Shown one piece after another: positions 8,800 to 18,901 of a DNA stretch of 20,111 nt. The DNA lies in the IMG/VR virus record IMGVR_UViG_3300011116_000053, positions 1-20,111 of that record, one strand, 5' to 3'. The stretch is from a virus. The translations under genes were made by a program, and so were the position numbers. The notes beneath the pieces were generated by a model. It did no database searches, had not been told where the DNA came from, and saw only the letters and a program-made list of their open reading frames with translations. How positions within the stretch are numbered: position 1 is the stretch's first letter; every line of letters begins with the position of its first letter.

Positions 8800-9222
8800 A
8801 TGGCCGCTTTAGTTCTTACAAACGCATCCGTTGTTATCAACGGGATCAATCTCAGCGAATTTATTACAAGCATTGCAATTTCAACTAGCGAAGATGTTAT
8901 TGATACTACAGGTATGGGTTCGGCTGGAGCGCGTACCCGTGTTAGTGGGCTTCAAGATAACTCAGTAACTATTGAGTTCAATCAAGATTTTGCTGCAGGT
9001 GGACCTGAAGTTTCAATTAACGCAGTTGGTTCATCACTTGTTGGCACAAATACAACTATTGTTGTGAAGCCAACATCAGCAGCAGTAAGTGCAAGCAATC
9101 CTAGTTACAGTTTTTCAGCGGTTGTTGCCGAATGGCAACCTCTTTCTGCAGCCGTGGGCGAGTTAAGTAGTATTTCGACTACTTGGCCAATCTCAGGCGT
9201 AATCACAAAGGCAATTGCATAA
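8800..9222 (+). CDS. Major tail protein, copy 1
   Basis: Probable tail tube subunit, 140 aa, rich in beta-forming, Thr/Ser/Val residues. It starts immediately after the previous stop. It is clearly paralogous to the next gene: both share MA-LVLTNA at the start, DVIDTTG, TRV-GL-DNS-TIEFNQD in the middle, and VSASNP...AEWQP-SAAVGEL...TWPISG-ITK at the end. The position before the tail assembly chaperone pair is the standard place of the tube gene. Which paralog forms the tube cannot be told from the sequence. Confidence 0.8.
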   Translation: MAALVLTNASVVINGINLSEFITSIAISTSEDVIDTTGMGSAGARTRVSGLQDNSVTIEFNQDFAAGGPEVSINAVGSSLVGTNTTIVVKPTSAAVSASNPSYSFSAVVAEWQPLSAAVGELSSISTTWPISGVITKAIA

Positions 9223-9657
9223 ATGGCGCGTTTAGTTCTCACAAATGCTTATGTCGTTTTTGCAAGCAACGATATTAGCCAATATGTTACCTCAGTTTCA
9301 TTATCAACATCTTATGATGTTATTGACACCACAGGTATTTCAACTACAGGCGCAGCTCGTACTCGCGTTGCTGGCCTTGCTGATAACTCAATAACTATTG
9401 AGTTTAATCAAGATTATGCAGACAATGCACTTGAAGAACTTATTAACGGAACTACTACAACAAATGGAACTGTTGGCTTAGTTGTGGCAATGGAAGTTCG
9501 ACCAGTTAACACAACTGTAAGTGCAAGCAATCCTAAATTTACCTTCAATGCGTTGATTGCCGAATGGCAACCTGTTTCTGCAGCCGTGGGTGAGTTAGCA
9601 AGCGTTTCTGCAACTTGGCCAATCTCAGGTCAAATTACAAAATCAATTACACCGTAA
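9223..9657 (+). CDS. Major tail protein, copy 2 (tandem paralog)
   Basis: A 144-aa tube-type protein beginning on the base after the stop of copy 1. The C-terminal part is most conserved with copy 1 (AEWQP-SAAVGEL, WPISG-ITK). At DNA level, 9127-9165 and 9559-9597 match at 37 of 39 bases, and 9085-9103 equals 9517-9535 exactly, both at an offset of 432 bases. This points to tandem duplication or gene conversion. The middle differs more (NALEELINGTTTTNG, AMEVRPVNT), so the two may have separate roles, such as tube and a decorated or tip-proximal ring. Confidence 0.8.
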   Translation: MARLVLTNAYVVFASNDISQYVTSVSLSTSYDVIDTTGISTTGAARTRVAGLADNSITIEFNQDYADNALEELINGTTTTNGTVGLVVAMEVRPVNTTVSASNPKFTFNALIAEWQPVSAAVGELASVSATWPISGQITKSITP

Positions 9658-9675: not shown

Positions 9676-9954
9676 ATGGATGGATTAGCAGTTAAGGTAA
9701 AAACAGTTGATGGCAATGAAGTTAGTTACAAACTAACCCCACGCATCATTGTGGCATTTGAACAACAATTTGGTGCTGGTATGCCTAAGTTGCTGGGTGA
9801 ACAACAAAAAGTTGAACATATTTATTGGTTGGCTTGGAAAGCAATGCAGACTAATGGAATTGTTGTAAAACTTTTCGGTCCCGAATTCTTGGATTCAATT
9901 GTCAGCGCAGAATTGGATGCTGATAGTTCTTTCGAATCCACCGCAACAGTCTAA
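9676..9954 (+). CDS. Tail assembly chaperone, short form (gpG-like)
   Basis: A 92-aa protein expected to bind the tape measure and bring tube subunits during tail assembly. It is preceded by AAGGGGGAAAAG upstream of the ATG at 9676. It has a mostly alpha-helical pattern (RIIVAFEQQFGAGMPKLLGE, then HIYWLAWKAMQTNG) and an acidic C-terminus, as in gpG-type proteins. Position between the tube genes and the tape measure, plus a second overlapping reading frame downstream, supports the call. Confidence 0.8.
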   Translation: MDGLAVKVKTVDGNEVSYKLTPRIIVAFEQQFGAGMPKLLGEQQKVEHIYWLAWKAMQTNGIVVKLFGPEFLDSIVSAELDADSSFESTATV

Positions 9955-10079
9955 CTTATACGATTGCTGCGGTGGCCTGCGAAACTGGCGTGAGTCCGAT
10001 TGATCTACTAGATGCCCCTGAAGGCATCTTTGAAGCAATGACTATTTATTTGAAGGAACGAGCTAAAGCCAATGGCTGA
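9676..10079 (+). CDS. Tail assembly chaperone, frameshifted long form (gpGT-like)
   Basis: The -1 reading frame is open from 9927 to the TGA at 10077-10079 and encodes a plausible T domain (TIAAVACETGVSPIDLLDAP, then EGIFEAMTIYLKERAKANG) without a good start of its own. A -1 slip at about 9927-9933 (AGT TCT TTC) would join 86 gpG residues to 48 T residues, giving about 134 aa. The T frame overlaps the next gene by 8 bases. Frameshifted gpG/gpGT pairs are near universal in long-tailed phages; the slip site itself is inferred. Confidence 0.72.
9927..9975 (+). promoter_or_regulatory. Candidate -1 frameshift signal: slip site plus stem-loop
   Basis: The presumed slip site TTCTTTC (9927-9933, read T-TCT-TTC in the gpG frame) is followed after a 4-base spacer by a perfect 8-bp, GC-rich stem: CCACCGCA at 9938-9945 with TGCGGTGG at 9968-9975. 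The 22-base loop contains the gpG stop codon (9952-9954). The heptamer is not a canonical X-XXY-YYZ; only the Phe codon re-pairs cleanly (TTC to TTT). Confidence 0.6.
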
Positions 10080-10641
10080 TGAAGTAATTGTTCTAACAGG
10101 TATCAAAGAAACTATTGATGCCCTAAAAGCCTTTGATAAAGATGCAGTTAAACGCTTCAATAAAGTAATCAATACTGAACTTGCTGGCGCTCAGCGAGAT
10201 GCCCGCAATATCATCCAGGATGAACCGCCGATGAGTGGTTGGAGCAAATCCGATGCGGCTAAACCCCGCAAAACCACTCGCGGTGGTGCTGGATGGCCTG
10301 GATGGAACGCTGGCGAAATCAAAAGCAAGATTACAAAGACAAAAGCCCAGGGCAAGGTTCGTGGTGATTACACAACAAGTGCTGGTGCTTTATTGAACAA
10401 ATCTGCAGCAGGTTCAATTTTTGAAGTTGCTGGGCGCGTTGCTTCAGGTACTAAGAGAATGACTGCCCAATCATCTAGTGGGCAATTCTTGCGAACTCTT
10501 GGAAACAGATTTGGAAAAGCATCGCGTGTAGTATGGCGTGTTGTTGATAAAGACAGATCAAGAATTGAAGCAAATGTAAATCGTGCTTTGGAACAGGCAA
10601 AGGCAGATTTGCAACAACATTTAAACAAGGAGCGTGCATAA
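10072..10641 (+). CDS. HK97 gp10-like tail protein (tentative)
   Basis: A 189-aa basic protein beginning MADEVIVLTGIKETIDALKA, with the pattern L..L..F...AVKRFNK.......AQRDARN at residues 15-46. This resembles the N-terminus of HK97 gp10-type head-tail or tail proteins. A Gly/Lys-rich middle (KPRKTTRGGAGWPGWN) and a C-terminal helix (NRALEQAKADLQQHLNKE) follow. HK97 gp10 relatives usually lie upstream of the tube gene, whereas this gene sits between the chaperone pair and the tape measure. It overlaps the T frame by 8 bases and touches the tape measure ATG. A structural role in the tail is likely; the exact one is uncertain. Confidence 0.5.
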   Translation: MADEVIVLTGIKETIDALKAFDKDAVKRFNKVINTELAGAQRDARNIIQDEPPMSGWSKSDAAKPRKTTRGGAGWPGWNAGEIKSKITKTKAQGKVRGDYTTSAGALLNKSAAGSIFEVAGRVASGTKRMTAQSSSGQFLRTLGNRFGKASRVVWRVVDKDRSRIEANVNRALEQAKADLQQHLNKERA

Positions 10642-12228
10642 ATGGCAGTTGGCGCAATTGTAGCCCGCATCCTTACCCAGTATTCTGATAAAGGTTCAAA
10701 GGCTGCTCAAAAAGATATTAACAAACTTGGCAAAAACATTGATGGATTTGCCAAAAAAGCTACAAAAGCATTTGGATTGGCAGCATTAGCATCAGCAGCA
10801 CTTGCGGTTAAAATTGGAAAAGATGCAGTTCAGGCAGCAATTGCGGATCAGAAATCTCAAGCATTGCTTGCTAACTCTTTGCGTAATACTGCAGGTGCAA
10901 GTAAAGAAGCAATTGCAGGGGTAGAAGGCTACATAACTTCGCTTCAAAAGCAATTTTCCGTGGTGGATGATGATTTGCGCCCGTCTATGGCGCGGTTGAC
11001 TGCAGCCACAGGCTCAATTACGGCAGCACAAACTTTAATGCAAACCGCCTTAGATGTAAGTGCTTCATCAGGTGCTGATTTAGAATCTTCGGTTGGCGCA
11101 ATCATTAAGGCAACAAGCGGGCAATTCAAGGCACTAAAAACACTTGTGCCAGCCTTAAGCAATGCAACCATTAAATCTAAAGATGTTGCTAAAGCATTTG
11201 AAGAAGTAAATAAAGCAACCTCAGGCGCAGCAGCAAAACGCGCTGGAACTCTTGAGTATCGCCTTGCAGGATTAAAAATTGCATTTGGTGAGATTCTTGA
11301 AACATTGGGTTATGCGCTTTTGCCAATTATTGAAAGATTTGCAACAACTGTTTCAACAAAGATTTTGCCAGCAATTGAAAATTGGGTTGCACTTAATAAA
11401 GATAAATTAGCGGCTAGTTTTCAAACTGCTACAGATTTTGCAGTTAAATTACTTGGTGTGGCATTAACATTTGGTAATTGGGTTTCAAATAACACAACTG
11501 CTATTAAAATCCTTGCTGGATTGATTGCGGGTATGTTTGTAGTAGGAAGAATCTCAGCATTTGTTCTTGCAATTGGAACAATTACAACCGCAATGGCAGC
11601 ATTGCGAGCAACTGCATTAGGTGCAGCCGTTGCAACGGCTTTTGCAACAGGTGGCGTAAGTGCAGTAGCAGGTGGAGTAGCCGTTGCTGGAATACTTGCA
11701 GCAGTTGGTGCGGCAGCAATGGCACCAGGAACTACTGCAGGCGGTAGTGGTAAGAGTGGCGGGGCAACTAGCGGCAATCCATTCCCTAAGTTGGGTGCAG
11801 GTGGCGCAACTGGTGGAACTGGCGCTACTCCACGAAATTATACTGGCCACCCATCAATGAATAGTATTGGACCAATTAAATCTGCTGATCAAACATTTTC
11901 CGATTGGCTTGCTGCGCTTAATAAAAATACAACCGCAACTATAAAAAATACAAAATCTGTAATGGATATTGCAACAGAAAACGCAATGAAAGAACTAGCA
12001 GCACGCCAAAAGGCGCTATCAGGTTCAGCTTCAATTGCGATTGGTGGCGGTGGCAAGATTTATAGCACTCGCAATAATGCTGGTGTAATAGTCAATGTTA
12101 ACGCAGGTAATGTTATTGGTTCAGCAGATGCGCTTATTGAGACAGTTCAAACAGGCCTTCAAGCTAGTGGCCGCCGTAATGGTGGCACTTTTGTTGGTGG
12201 GCGCAATATCGGAAATCTTGTAGTCTAA
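10642..12228 (+). CDS. Tail tape measure protein
   Basis: Sets tail length and may help DNA entry, 528 aa. It has the Ala/Lys-rich helical N-terminus (GSKAAQKDINKLGKNIDGFA), a conserved tape-measure segment around residues 60-230 (LANSLRNTAGASKEAI, LKTLVPALSNATIKSKDVAK, GEILETLGYALLPIIERFAT), and hydrophobic, probably membrane-active segments at about residues 285-370 (ILAGLIAGMFVVGR, AVAGGVAVAGILAAVGAAA). The C-terminus is Gly/Asn-rich. At about 0.15 nm per residue, a common rule of thumb, the tail would be near 80 nm. It is short for a siphovirus but complete; its TAA overlaps the next ATG by one base. Confidence 0.93.
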   Translation: MAVGAIVARILTQYSDKGSKAAQKDINKLGKNIDGFAKKATKAFGLAALASAALAVKIGKDAVQAAIADQKSQALLANSLRNTAGASKEAIAGVEGYITSLQKQFSVVDDDLRPSMARLTAATGSITAAQTLMQTALDVSASSGADLESSVGAIIKATSGQFKALKTLVPALSNATIKSKDVAKAFEEVNKATSGAAAKRAGTLEYRLAGLKIAFGEILETLGYALLPIIERFATTVSTKILPAIENWVALNKDKLAASFQTATDFAVKLLGVALTFGNWVSNNTTAIKILAGLIAGMFVVGRISAFVLAIGTITTAMAALRATALGAAVATAFATGGVSAVAGGVAVAGILAAVGAAAMAPGTTAGGSGKSGGATSGNPFPKLGAGGATGGTGATPRNYTGHPSMNSIGPIKSADQTFSDWLAALNKNTTATIKNTKSVMDIATENAMKELAARQKALSGSASIAIGGGGKIYSTRNNAGVIVNVNAGNVIGSADALIETVQTGLQASGRRNGGTFVGGRNIGNLVV

Positions 12229-15680: not shown

Positions 15681-16022
15681 ATGGCAGGCATTTACGATTT
15701 CACAATCGAACAAGGCGCAACTTTCAATCTTCTTATGACTTGGAAAATTGATAATGTGCCAGTTAACCTTACTGGTTATACTGCCCGCCTACAGGCACGC
15801 ATTGATGTTGATGAAACTGACACAATTTTGTCACTTACAACAGGTGCAGGTATCACACTTGGCGGTGCCGCTGGCACAATTACCTTAAATCAAAGCGCTG
15901 CACAAACTGCAGTTTTGCCAAAAGGTGAGTATGTCTATGATTTAGAGCTACAAACAAGCGGTGGCATCGTCACACGCTTGCTACAAGGTGAACTTAACAT
16001 TTCTGCAGAGGTGACTCGATAA
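15681..16022 (+). CDS. Tail-associated beta-sandwich protein
   Basis: A 113-aa beta-rich protein of a widespread phage type found just before fibre genes. It begins with [20 protein letters not shown], has [15 protein letters not shown] in the first third, and ends with [20 protein letters not shown] followed by [12 protein letters not shown]. The pattern is that of an Ig-like or BppU N-terminal-like attachment domain, so it may anchor the collagen-like fibre to the tail. GGAG at 15670-15673 marks the start. Its TAA shares one base with the fibre ATG, which supports a joint function. Confidence 0.7.
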
Positions 16023-18901
16023 TGGCCACAAGCGTTGTAACAATTAACACCGAAGATATTGATGTTGTTATTTCTAATGCACAAGGCCCACAGGGTCCAG
16101 GTGGTGCGACAGGTCCAACTGGTCCTGCGGGTGCAACAGGTGCTACTGGTGCAACAGGCATTGGTGCAACAGGTGCTACAGGTGCTACAGGTTCAACTGG
16201 TCCTGCAGGCGCTACTGGTGTTACAGGTCCAATTGGCGCAACGGGTGTAACCGGTCCAACTGGTGTTATAGGTGCAACTGGACCTCAAGGAACAATTGGA
16301 GCAACAGGTGCAACAGGTGTGGTTGGACCAACGGGTGCAACTGGATCGCAAGGAATCCAGGGTATTCAGGGAATTCAAGGCGTAGTAGGCGCAACAGGTG
16401 CTACTGGCGTTCAAGGAAATGTTGGCGCAACTGGACCGCAAGGTGCAACTGGAGTTACAGGTGCAACAGGTGCTACAGGTCCACAAGGTTTAACTGGTCC
16501 AACTGGTGCTACAGGCGCTCAAGGTACTGGCATAACAATTCTTGGTTCATATCCAACTTATGCAGCACTAATTGCAGCCCACCCAACAGGAAATGCTGGC
16601 GATGCTTACATTGTTGGACCTGATCTTTATGTATGGTCAACAACAACATCTTCTTGGCTCAATACTGGCCAAATTCAAGGCCCAACAGGTGCAACTGGTG
16701 CTACAGGTCCAATTGGTGCTACTGGTGCAACTGGTCCAATAGGTGCAACAGGTAATACTGGCTCAACAGGTGCTACAGGTTCAACTGGTCCAATCGGAGC
16801 TACAGGTGCAACTGGTCCAACAGGTGCAACTGGTGCTACAGGTGCAACAGGTGCCGATGGTGGTTCAGCAAATTATTACGACTACAAAGCAAAAACCACA
16901 ATTACAACGGGCGACCCAACTAGTCAATATTTAATTTGGAACAATGCAACACAGATTTCTGCAACACAAATTAACATAAGCCACATTAACGCAGATGGTG
17001 TTGATGTTGATATTTTCTTAGCCTTAATTAAAACAAATGATGTAATTATTGTTCAAGATAAAAATGCATCTACTAACTTTCAAAAATTTACAGTATCTGC
17101 AACACCAACAATTCAAACAGGTTATGTTCAAATCCCAGTAACACTTACATCATCAGGTGGCACTGGAACAACTAATTTTGCAAACAATATTGCAATTATT
17201 GTTGCAATTGTATCTGCAGGTGTTGTCGGTCCAACAGGTGCAACAGGTTCCGTAGGTGCCACTGGCCCAATCGGAGCCACGGGCGCTACAGGGCCAACAG
17301 GGGCGATAGGTGCTACTGGCCCAGTCGGTGCAACGGGTGCAACTGGCGCAGTCGGTGCAACAGGTGCCGTAGGTCCGACAGGGCCAATTGGCGCAACTGG
17401 ACCGCAAGGTGTTGCAGGCGCAGATGGAGCAACTGGACCTGTTGGTGCTACTGGTCCAATCGGTGCTACTGGTTCAATCGGAGCAACAGGCGTTGCTGGA
17501 ATTGATGGAGCAACAGGTGCAACAGGACCTGCAGGTGCTACTGGTGCAACTGGACCACAAGGAATTCAAGGTATCCAGGGAGCAGTTGGAGCAACTGGAC
17601 CAATCGGTGCTACTGGACCTGTTGGTGCAACTGGACCTGTTGGTGCTACTGGACCTGTTGGTGCTACTGGACCTGTTGGTGCTACTGGACCTGTTGGTGC
17701 TACTGGACCTACTGGAGCAACAGGTGTTGCAGGTTATACAGTTCTTAGCGGCACTGTTGATCCAACAACCGAAGGTGTTAATGGCGATTTTTACATTAAC
17801 ACTTCAACAAACAAAATCTTTGGACCAAAGGCAGCAGGCGTATGGCCTGCGGGTGTATTTATCGTTGGACCTACTGGTGCAACAGGACCTGTAGGTGCTA
17901 CTGGCCCTGTTGGTGCTACTGGTACCGCTGGCGCAGTTGGAGCAACTGGTGCTACTGGTCCTGCTGGTGCCACTGGACCCGTGGGAGCCACGGGCGCAGT
18001 AGGTGCCACAGGTGTTACAGGCGCTACAGGTGCCACAGGCGCTGCAGGTTCAACTGCTGCAATAACTTATGTTTATACTGCAACCGCATCACAAACAACA
18101 TTTAGTGGCGCTGACCTTAACTCACTTACTCTTGCTTATACCGTAGGAGCTGAACAGGTGTATCTCAACGGTACTTTGCTTGTTCGCACTAGCGATTACA
18201 CCGCAACCACAGGAACATCTATTGTTCTTGCAAGCGGTGCATTGGCCGGGGATTCATTAGCAGTAACGGCTTATGGAACTTTCAATGTTGCCAATACTTA
18301 TACAATTGCTCAATCAGATGCAGCATTTATTCCTAAATCACTTGTAACAACAAAGGGTGATTTAATAGTTGCAACGGCATCGGGTACGGTAGATCGCTTG
18401 GCTGCGGGAAGTAGCTCACAAATACTTGTGGCGGATAGTTCCACTTCAACAGGCTTAAAATGGGCTACGGCTGCGGGCGGTGGCAAAGTCTTACAAGTTG
18501 TAATGGGTACCACAACTACGGAAGTTACTTCAACCACTAGCACTTATGTAGATACAGGATTAACGGCGACAATTACTCCAAGTGCCTCAACAAGTAAAAT
18601 ACTTGTTTTAGTGGCACAGAATGGATTTGATAAAGACATAAGCGACACAGGAACAGACCAAATTCTTTTACGAGGCGCGACCCAAATCTCATTCTTTGCT
18701 CAAGACGCAGGATACACAAATGGTACAACGCCAGGCCATAATGCTATTGGCGGCGTAGCAATAAATTATTTAGATAGTCCTGCTACCACTTCTGCCACTA
18801 CTTATAAAACACAATTTCGTTCAAATGCTAATACTTCAAGGGTACGCATTCAATGGAATAATGCTATGTCATCTATAATTTTAATGGAAATAGGAGCCTA
18901 A
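16022..18901 (+). CDS. Collagen-like tail fibre
   Basis: A 959-aa fibre, the largest gene here. Four blocks of Gly-X-Y triplets (mostly [15 protein letters not shown]) occupy residues 22-170, 220-280, 403-571 and 616-676, about 145 triplets in total. They should form triple-helical rods. Between them are short globular inserts: 171-219 ([20 protein letters not shown]), 281-402 (beta-rich) and 572-615 ([20 protein letters not shown]). The C-terminal 280 residues contain beta strands, a KGDLIV...ILVADSS module, and an end domain ([20 protein letters not shown]) resembling a trimeric jelly roll. It probably protrudes from the tail or head and binds the host surface. Collagen-like phage fibres are known; this arrangement is not one I can assign to a named family. 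Confidence 0.88.
16085..16531 (+). repeat. Collagen-like block 1
   Basis: Tandem 9-base units coding for Gly-X-Y (about 49 triplets), with one short interruption at GATGIGATG and an Ile-Gln-Gly run ([10 protein letters not shown]). Confidence 0.9.
16679..16861 (+). repeat. Collagen-like block 2
   Basis: About 20 Gly-X-Y triplets, mainly GAT, GPT and GPI, ending in GADG. Confidence 0.9.
17228..17734 (+). repeat. Collagen-like block 3
   Basis: The longest block, about 56 triplets. It contains the near-identical 18-base repeats at 17615-17704. Confidence 0.9.
17615..17704 (+). repeat. Five tandem 18-base repeats
   Basis: Five copies of GGACCTGTTGGTGCWACT, encoding GPVGAT. Copies 2 to 5 are identical and copy 1 differs by one base, unlike the diverged codons elsewhere in the gene. 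Confidence 0.9.
17867..18049 (+). repeat. Collagen-like block 4
   Basis: About 20 triplets, mostly GPV, GAT and GAV, leading into the C-terminal domains. Confidence 0.9.

Follow-up and report, generated by a model that had tools for sequence, protein, structure and literature searches.

Locus and gene order

The window, i.e., the whole 20,111-nt stretch of viral DNA that we analyzed, carries a putative tail assembly chaperone pair, gpG and T, whose identity is taken from gene order: the pair sits between the tail-tube genes and the presumed tape-measure gene, the latter assigned in the window by position only. The features of this region are as follows.

8800-9222 and 9223-9657, plus strand: two tandem tail-tube (major tail) protein genes (phrog_4574, E 1.6e-21 and 2.8e-16, respectively)
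9676-9954, plus strand: gpG-like tail assembly chaperone ORF, 92 aa, the unshifted product (from the ORF and its IMG/VR homologues)
9924-9926, plus strand: TAG in the -1 frame, the upstream limit of the slip window (from the sequence)
9927-10079, plus strand: T-domain open frame, -1 relative to gpG, predicted to be translated only after a shift
10642-12228, plus strand: presumed tape-measure protein, 528 aa (from its position, with gene order as in Pontimonas phage phiPsal1)

Searches of gpG/T against PHROGs, Pfam and NCBIfam profiles detected no similarity to annotated chaperones, a structure model (pLDDT 80) had no PDB match at E <= 0.001 and matched only uncharacterised phage proteins in BFVD, and profile searches of the 10642-12228 product gave no match. 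One extra ORF lies between T and the tape measure both in the window and in phiPsal1. In the window this ORF (10072-10641, 189 aa) has an ATG that overlaps the T stop, and profile searches gave no family match for it; the phiPsal1 equivalent, in the same place, encodes 217 aa and is also without a match. The two tail-tube genes, both matching phrog_4574, are 56% identical to each other and have the look of a recent duplication of the major tail protein. Elsewhere in the window, positions 16022-18901 encode a protein of 959 aa with collagen repeats (Pfam Collagen, E 9.5e-58) that resembles a tail fibre.

Relatives and coding in the two frames

We scanned IMG/VR with three gpG proteins, obtaining 232, 315 and 594 encoding stretches in overlapping sets, from each of which the best 80 were taken, and a T-domain profile scan returned 328 encoding stretches. 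The protein-retrieved set comprises 93 distinct sequences and a larger set 180 to 182. Since the larger set stems partly from a DNA-pattern scan that demands the conserved core, only the 93 protein-retrieved sequences are unbiased with respect to core conservation. The rows of L202 and L203 (reverse orientation) were left out of the junction comparison, and all parsimony counts given below come from single trees of short sequences, in which recombination is possible. The arrangement of gpG followed by T in the -1 frame is kept in 93 of the 93 distinct protein-retrieved relatives (from the best 80 per scan), and wherever the junction could be read, T lies in the -1 frame relative to gpG and is open from the same point or from further upstream. 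The presence of the same signal in many related uncultured phages suggests that it is real. In the genome collection neither gpG nor the portal protein had a confirmed relative, hence no prophage or host was identified there, and among sequenced phages only phiPsal1 matched gpG-T.

Coding selection is observed in both frames. Downstream of the overlap, variation in the alignment of relatives is concentrated at the third positions of the -1 frame, indicating that T is under protein-level selection. The original prediction had the T frame open only from 9927 and the gpG stop at 9952-9954, and both hold: the TAG at 9924-9926 closes the -1 frame upstream, and the stop codon is TAA. Thus, any -1 shift into T must fall within 9927-9954.

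The slip site

The elements of the candidate signal are the following.

9913-9918, plus strand: TTGGAT, perhaps a weak Shine-Dalgarno-like stimulator, though uncertain (85 of 87 relatives have a Leu codon ending in G)
9927-9933, plus strand: TTCTTTC, the heptamer proposed originally (its first three bases are not conserved in relatives)
9930-9933, plus strand: U_UUC slip tetramer, on which tRNA-Phe is proposed to move from UUC (9931-9933) to UUU (9930-9932)
9934-9937, plus strand: spacer GAAT, 4 nt between slip site and stem (from the sequence; 3-6 nt in relatives)
9938-9945, plus strand: 5' arm of the stimulatory stem, CCACCGCA (from the fold; conserved and covarying in relatives)
9947-9951, plus strand: 5' arm of the inner helix, CAGTC, pairing with 9962-9966 (from the fold)
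9952-9961, plus strand: apical loop TAACTTATAC, 10 nt, which opens with the gpG stop codon (from the fold)
9962-9966, plus strand: 3' arm of the inner helix, GATTG (from the fold)
9968-9975, plus strand: 3' arm of the stem, TGCGGTGG, in register I (most relatives have it shifted downstream by 6 nt, register II)

As predicted, there is no X_XXY_YYZ heptamer between 9927 and 9954. The zero-frame codons in this interval are TCT TTC GAA TCC ACC GCA ACA GTC, among which good -1 re-pairing is available only at TTC (UUC to UUU), TCT needing a central G.U pair. Synonymous changes in gpG occur freely as far as about codon 83 and cease after it; 9930, i.e., the first T of U_UUC, is the first third position without variation and marks the start of the synonymous constraint. 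Wherever the commonest amino acid is present, only TCT (codon 85), TTC, TCC and ACC are used, and GAA is used in 96% of cases; in the family as a whole TCC, TCT and TTC account for 3%, 21% and 21% of their synonymous codons, yet they are exclusive at the slip region. U_UUC is kept in 159 of 182 distinct relatives. Among 180 sequences we found TTCTTTC 99 times, the canonical AAATTTC 27 times, GTCTTTC 20 times, ATCTTTC 9 times and CTCTTTC twice, the further variants being AAATTCC, TTCTTCC and TTCCTTC. The base preceding the TCT codon is therefore free (U, G, A or C), which indicates that P-site re-pairing is not what is conserved. Furthermore, 92 of the 182 sequences, the window included, have a -1 stop at the exact site of the window's TAG, so that in half of the sequences only the U_UUC region is left for a shift.

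These patterns bear directly on the choice of TTCTTTC as the best slip candidate. The sequence is present at 9927-9933 and the region was rightly chosen, but the heptamer as such is not conserved; mostly its last four bases alone are, and even these are lost in some relatives with an upstream CCC. From the sequence comparison, the motif is best read as the established tetramer U_UU.C rather than as a weak or degenerate heptamer, and for the window the suggestion that tRNA-Phe may slip alone is the best one, as the base preceding TCT is not conserved. In the E. coli measurements of Sharma et al. (2014), made with a downstream pseudoknot, U_UU.C ranked second in efficiency among the 16 Z_ZZN tetramers, and the tetramer is in use in IS elements (PMC4066793). 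As far as we have checked, a U_UUC slip site is unusual for a tail gene but mechanistically established. By itself, U_UUC shifts at low frequency in E. coli and requires a strong stimulator, which counts against our main reading. The candidate Shine-Dalgarno-like stimulator at 9913-9918 would be a weak one: its anti-SD energy is modestly better than that of codon-shuffled sequences, and the site is absent from some more distant relatives. L038, an exception to the G-ending Leu codon, gains GAGG with a better anti-SD energy (-6.1).

The hairpin downstream of the slip site

The perfect 8-bp stem described originally, 9938-9945 with 9968-9975 and beginning four bases past the slip site, is borne out by the sequence. 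Its 22-base loop does hold the gpG stop, but it is not an open loop, since the minimum free energy (MFE) hairpin contains a 5-bp inner helix and thus consists of 8 + 5 bp around one A.C mismatch; all five inner pairs form in each of the nine distinct register I sequences. The fold of 9934-10010 has an energy of -22.8 kcal/mol (z = -2.3). A search of Rfam returned no known RNA family at E <= 1. A second hairpin is predicted at 10011-10030, inside the T coding region, where GATGCC pairs with GGCATC.

In a single sequence such a stem is moderately unlikely to arise by chance and is weak evidence, because a perfect stem of at least 8 bp, starting 0-8 nt downstream and closing within 60 nt, is present at about 1.0% of the positions in the window. 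Randomising codons with the T amino acids fixed and with family codon usage gave an equally long stem in 0.5% of draws for the window (P 0.005) and in 0.04-5% of draws for 15 relatives. The relatives carry more weight. A stem of 7-14 bp (G.U allowed) lies 3, 4 or 6 nt past UUC in all 93 protein-retrieved sequences, and in the larger set a stop-enclosing hairpin lies 3-6 nt past UUC in 175 of 180 distinct sequences; among the other five, the L324/L368/L403 type keeps 6 bp, and L328 and L404 have one mismatched pair. The pairing occurs in two registers: in register I, found in the window and 10 others, the two positions of a pair, counted from the stop, add up to 9, and in register II, found in 82 sequences, they add up to 15. 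Register II sequences show C-G, A-T or T-G at pair -8.23, and at pair -7.22 they show A-T, G-C or G-T; neither pair has a broken combination in 51 distinct sequences. The covariation in the stem called for as a check was thus found, with compensatory pairs that changed on several branches, including double changes from C-G to A-T on about three branches. The 3' arm needs GCG or TCG, which make up 9% of Ala codons and 5% of Ser codons, respectively; position +23 is GCG or TCG in all register II sequences, and GCC in register I, which has GCG at +17. The register has switched several times on the trees, and recombination of the T segment is an alternative to repeated mutation as the cause. A stem in nearly every relative, together with covariation, excludes chance, and its role as a frameshift stimulator is supported as the best reading by its conservation and covariation in relatives. 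The usual spacer between slip site and structure is 5-9 nt (PMC5009743); the spacer of 3-6 nt found here is at or below this range, and the 3-4 nt of many members count against our main reading. With such a spacer the base of the stem would be partly open during the shift.

Proposed mechanism and alternative explanations

We consider it probable that a programmed -1 ribosomal frameshift yields a minor gpG-T fusion beside the major 92-aa gpG, with a presumed lambda-like role in the tail. In the proposed sequence of events, a ribosome with the Phe codon UUC (9931-9933) in its decoding sites would be held by the hairpin at 9938-9975, 4 nt downstream. In a minority of ribosomes tRNA-Phe would leave UUC and re-pair with UUU, which overlaps it in the tetramer U_UU.C (9930-9933), and reading would resume at CGA (9933-9935) in the T frame, past the gpG stop inside the hairpin, while the remaining ribosomes would terminate at 9952. 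The fusion would be gpG(1-86)-RIHRNSLTYT..., 134 aa in length, with the junction ...ELDADSSF-RIHRNSLTYT...; its predicted junction tryptic peptide, LFGPEFLDSIVSAELDADSSFR, is the same in the window whichever tRNA slips, and the unshifted gpG ends in ...DADSSFESTATV. By analogy with lambda (PMC5009743), gpG and gpG-T may help assemble the tail around the tape-measure protein. We infer slippage itself and its frequency, and by the same analogy both the gpG:gpG-T ratio and the chaperone role.

Several other explanations have to be weighed against slippage by tRNA-Phe alone. Both tRNAs might slip on T_TCT_TTC, the P-site Ser-tRNA moving from UCU to UUC with a central G.U pair as tRNA-Phe moves from UUC to UUU; TTCTTTC is indeed the commonest variant (99 of 180), and a related group (27 of 180) has the canonical A_AAU_UUC, where both tRNAs can re-pair. 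However, G, A or C precedes TCT in 31 of 180 sequences, where first-position re-pairing of the Ser-tRNA fails and U_UUC and the stem are kept all the same, and we therefore regard two-tRNA slippage as unlikely. That the shift takes place one codon earlier throughout the family, on C_CCA_AAU or C_CCU_UCN, with U_UUC merely coding, would account for the CCC found there in all 23 sequences that lack U_UUC and would bring the spacer to 6-9 nt; it is impossible in the window and 91 others, which have a -1 stop at that codon, and so is open to the CCC group only and, for the family, highly improbable.

The two remaining alternatives dispense with the stimulator or with the shift. The stem could simply result from dual coding together with the repetitive Ala-Val codons in T: its 5' arm is nearly fixed and codes in both frames, and the randomisation P is only about 0.05 in the group that has the AAVAVETG motif. 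Against this, double compensatory changes recur, pairing is kept through the register switches, stems reach 14 bp (P 0.0016-0.0018 for that length, counting Watson-Crick and G.U pairs), and the rare GCG or TCG is fixed at +23 in register II, leaving a stem with no stimulatory role very unlikely. As to separate translation of T, by re-initiation past the gpG stop or from a start of its own, the close overlap between the gpG stop and the T domain resembles that of coupled genes, and the window group has a T-frame GTG at +20, while 51 of 93 relatives have one at +26. But these GTGs lie within the 3' stem arm and the conserved domain, 26 of the 93 distinct relatives lack any ATG, GTG or TTG among the 12 T codons that follow the stop, and the -1-frame constraint starts 22 nt before the stop, which separate initiation does not explain. 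No start codon for T was found to be conserved in the 93 distinct relatives, and on this ground an own start or re-initiation, which would have spoken against the original prediction, was rejected; we regard separate translation as extremely improbable.

Possible turnover of the slip site in CCC-containing relatives

In each of the 23 of 182 sequences without U_UUC (AAATTCC, TTCTTCC or TTCCTTC), CCC stands directly upstream and the -1 frame is open, and these CCC-only sequences carry C_CCA_AAU or C_CCU_UCN one codon earlier. Both CCC and U_UUC are present in 20 sequences, and U_UUC is missing in none of the 139 sequences without CCC (Fisher P 1e-17, kinship ignored). On trees built from either G or T, about four changes led to the CCC-only state. 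Our opinion is evenly divided on whether the slip site was handed over within one phage family, U_UUC becoming dispensable once a CCC-based site lay upstream, through intermediates with both sites, as the hairpin stayed in place and its 3' arm could swap between two neighbouring Ala-Val codon pairs. If true, the family would display the evolution of a frameshift signal as a natural series, and its interest lies mainly in such a series for slip-site turnover. For the CCCAAATTCC relatives, the predicted junctions are ...PNF-RIHR for a shift on C_CCA_AAU and ...PNS-RIHR for a shift at the TCC codon.

Comparison with known systems

The lambda G/GT slip site is a heptamer, whereas the window has a U_UUC tetramer and a strong downstream hairpin that contains the stop. 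The likeness to lambda gpG/gpGT lies in a small G followed by T in the -1 frame, between the tail-tube and tape-measure genes, and in the minor fusion that a -1 shift close to the G terminus would be expected to yield (PMC5009743). Gene order, frame relation, slip motif, stem and reduced synonymous variation all agree with this class, and as U_UUC is experimentally active in E. coli, we place the signal among the lambda G/GT-type frameshifts; the class is known, and it is the slip site that is uncommon. The Z_ZZN signals of IS1 and IS3 elements likewise combine a single-tRNA -1 slip on a tetramer, U_UU.C included, with a downstream structural stimulator, but they serve transposase genes and often use a pseudoknot or an SD-like stimulator, in contrast to the simple hairpin in a tail gene here (PMC4066793). 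Slip motifs beyond XXXYYYZ have also been proposed for the actinophage tail chaperones of the PRFect training set (PMC10885494). In that source, the relatives with AAATTCC agree with the motif name 'threetwotwo', but NTCTTTC appears, judged by the motif names, to match none of the eight backward motifs, and 22 annotated genomes of the training set have no listed motif in the overlap (PMC10885494). A limited check of the literature found no paper on the frameshift signal of this phage family.

Tail-chaperone frameshifts are widespread, and prediction tools depend on lists of slip motifs. As the conserved core in these uncultured phages is merely UUUC and a hairpin, the fusion is easily missed. 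On present sequence evidence, a slip at UUUC probably gives this freshwater phage its tail chaperone in two versions, one short and one long. With the natural variants, namely a free base before TCT, loss of U_UUC only where CCC lies upstream, and two stem registers, both slippage by a single tRNA and the influence of stem spacing can be tested directly.

phiPsal1 (MG835450) has homologous G and T in the same -1 relation and the same gene order, and its gene at the tape-measure position is annotated as tape measure. It shares 28% identity with the window over gpG-T and differs in having, right before the G stop, an A7 slip run (A8 in related contigs) in place of U_UUC. In its record G (gene 016) and T appear only as hypothetical proteins, with T unannotated as such (MG835450 10817-11229, corresponding to L162 3001-3413); very likely, the record misses a joined -1 frameshift at the A7 run.
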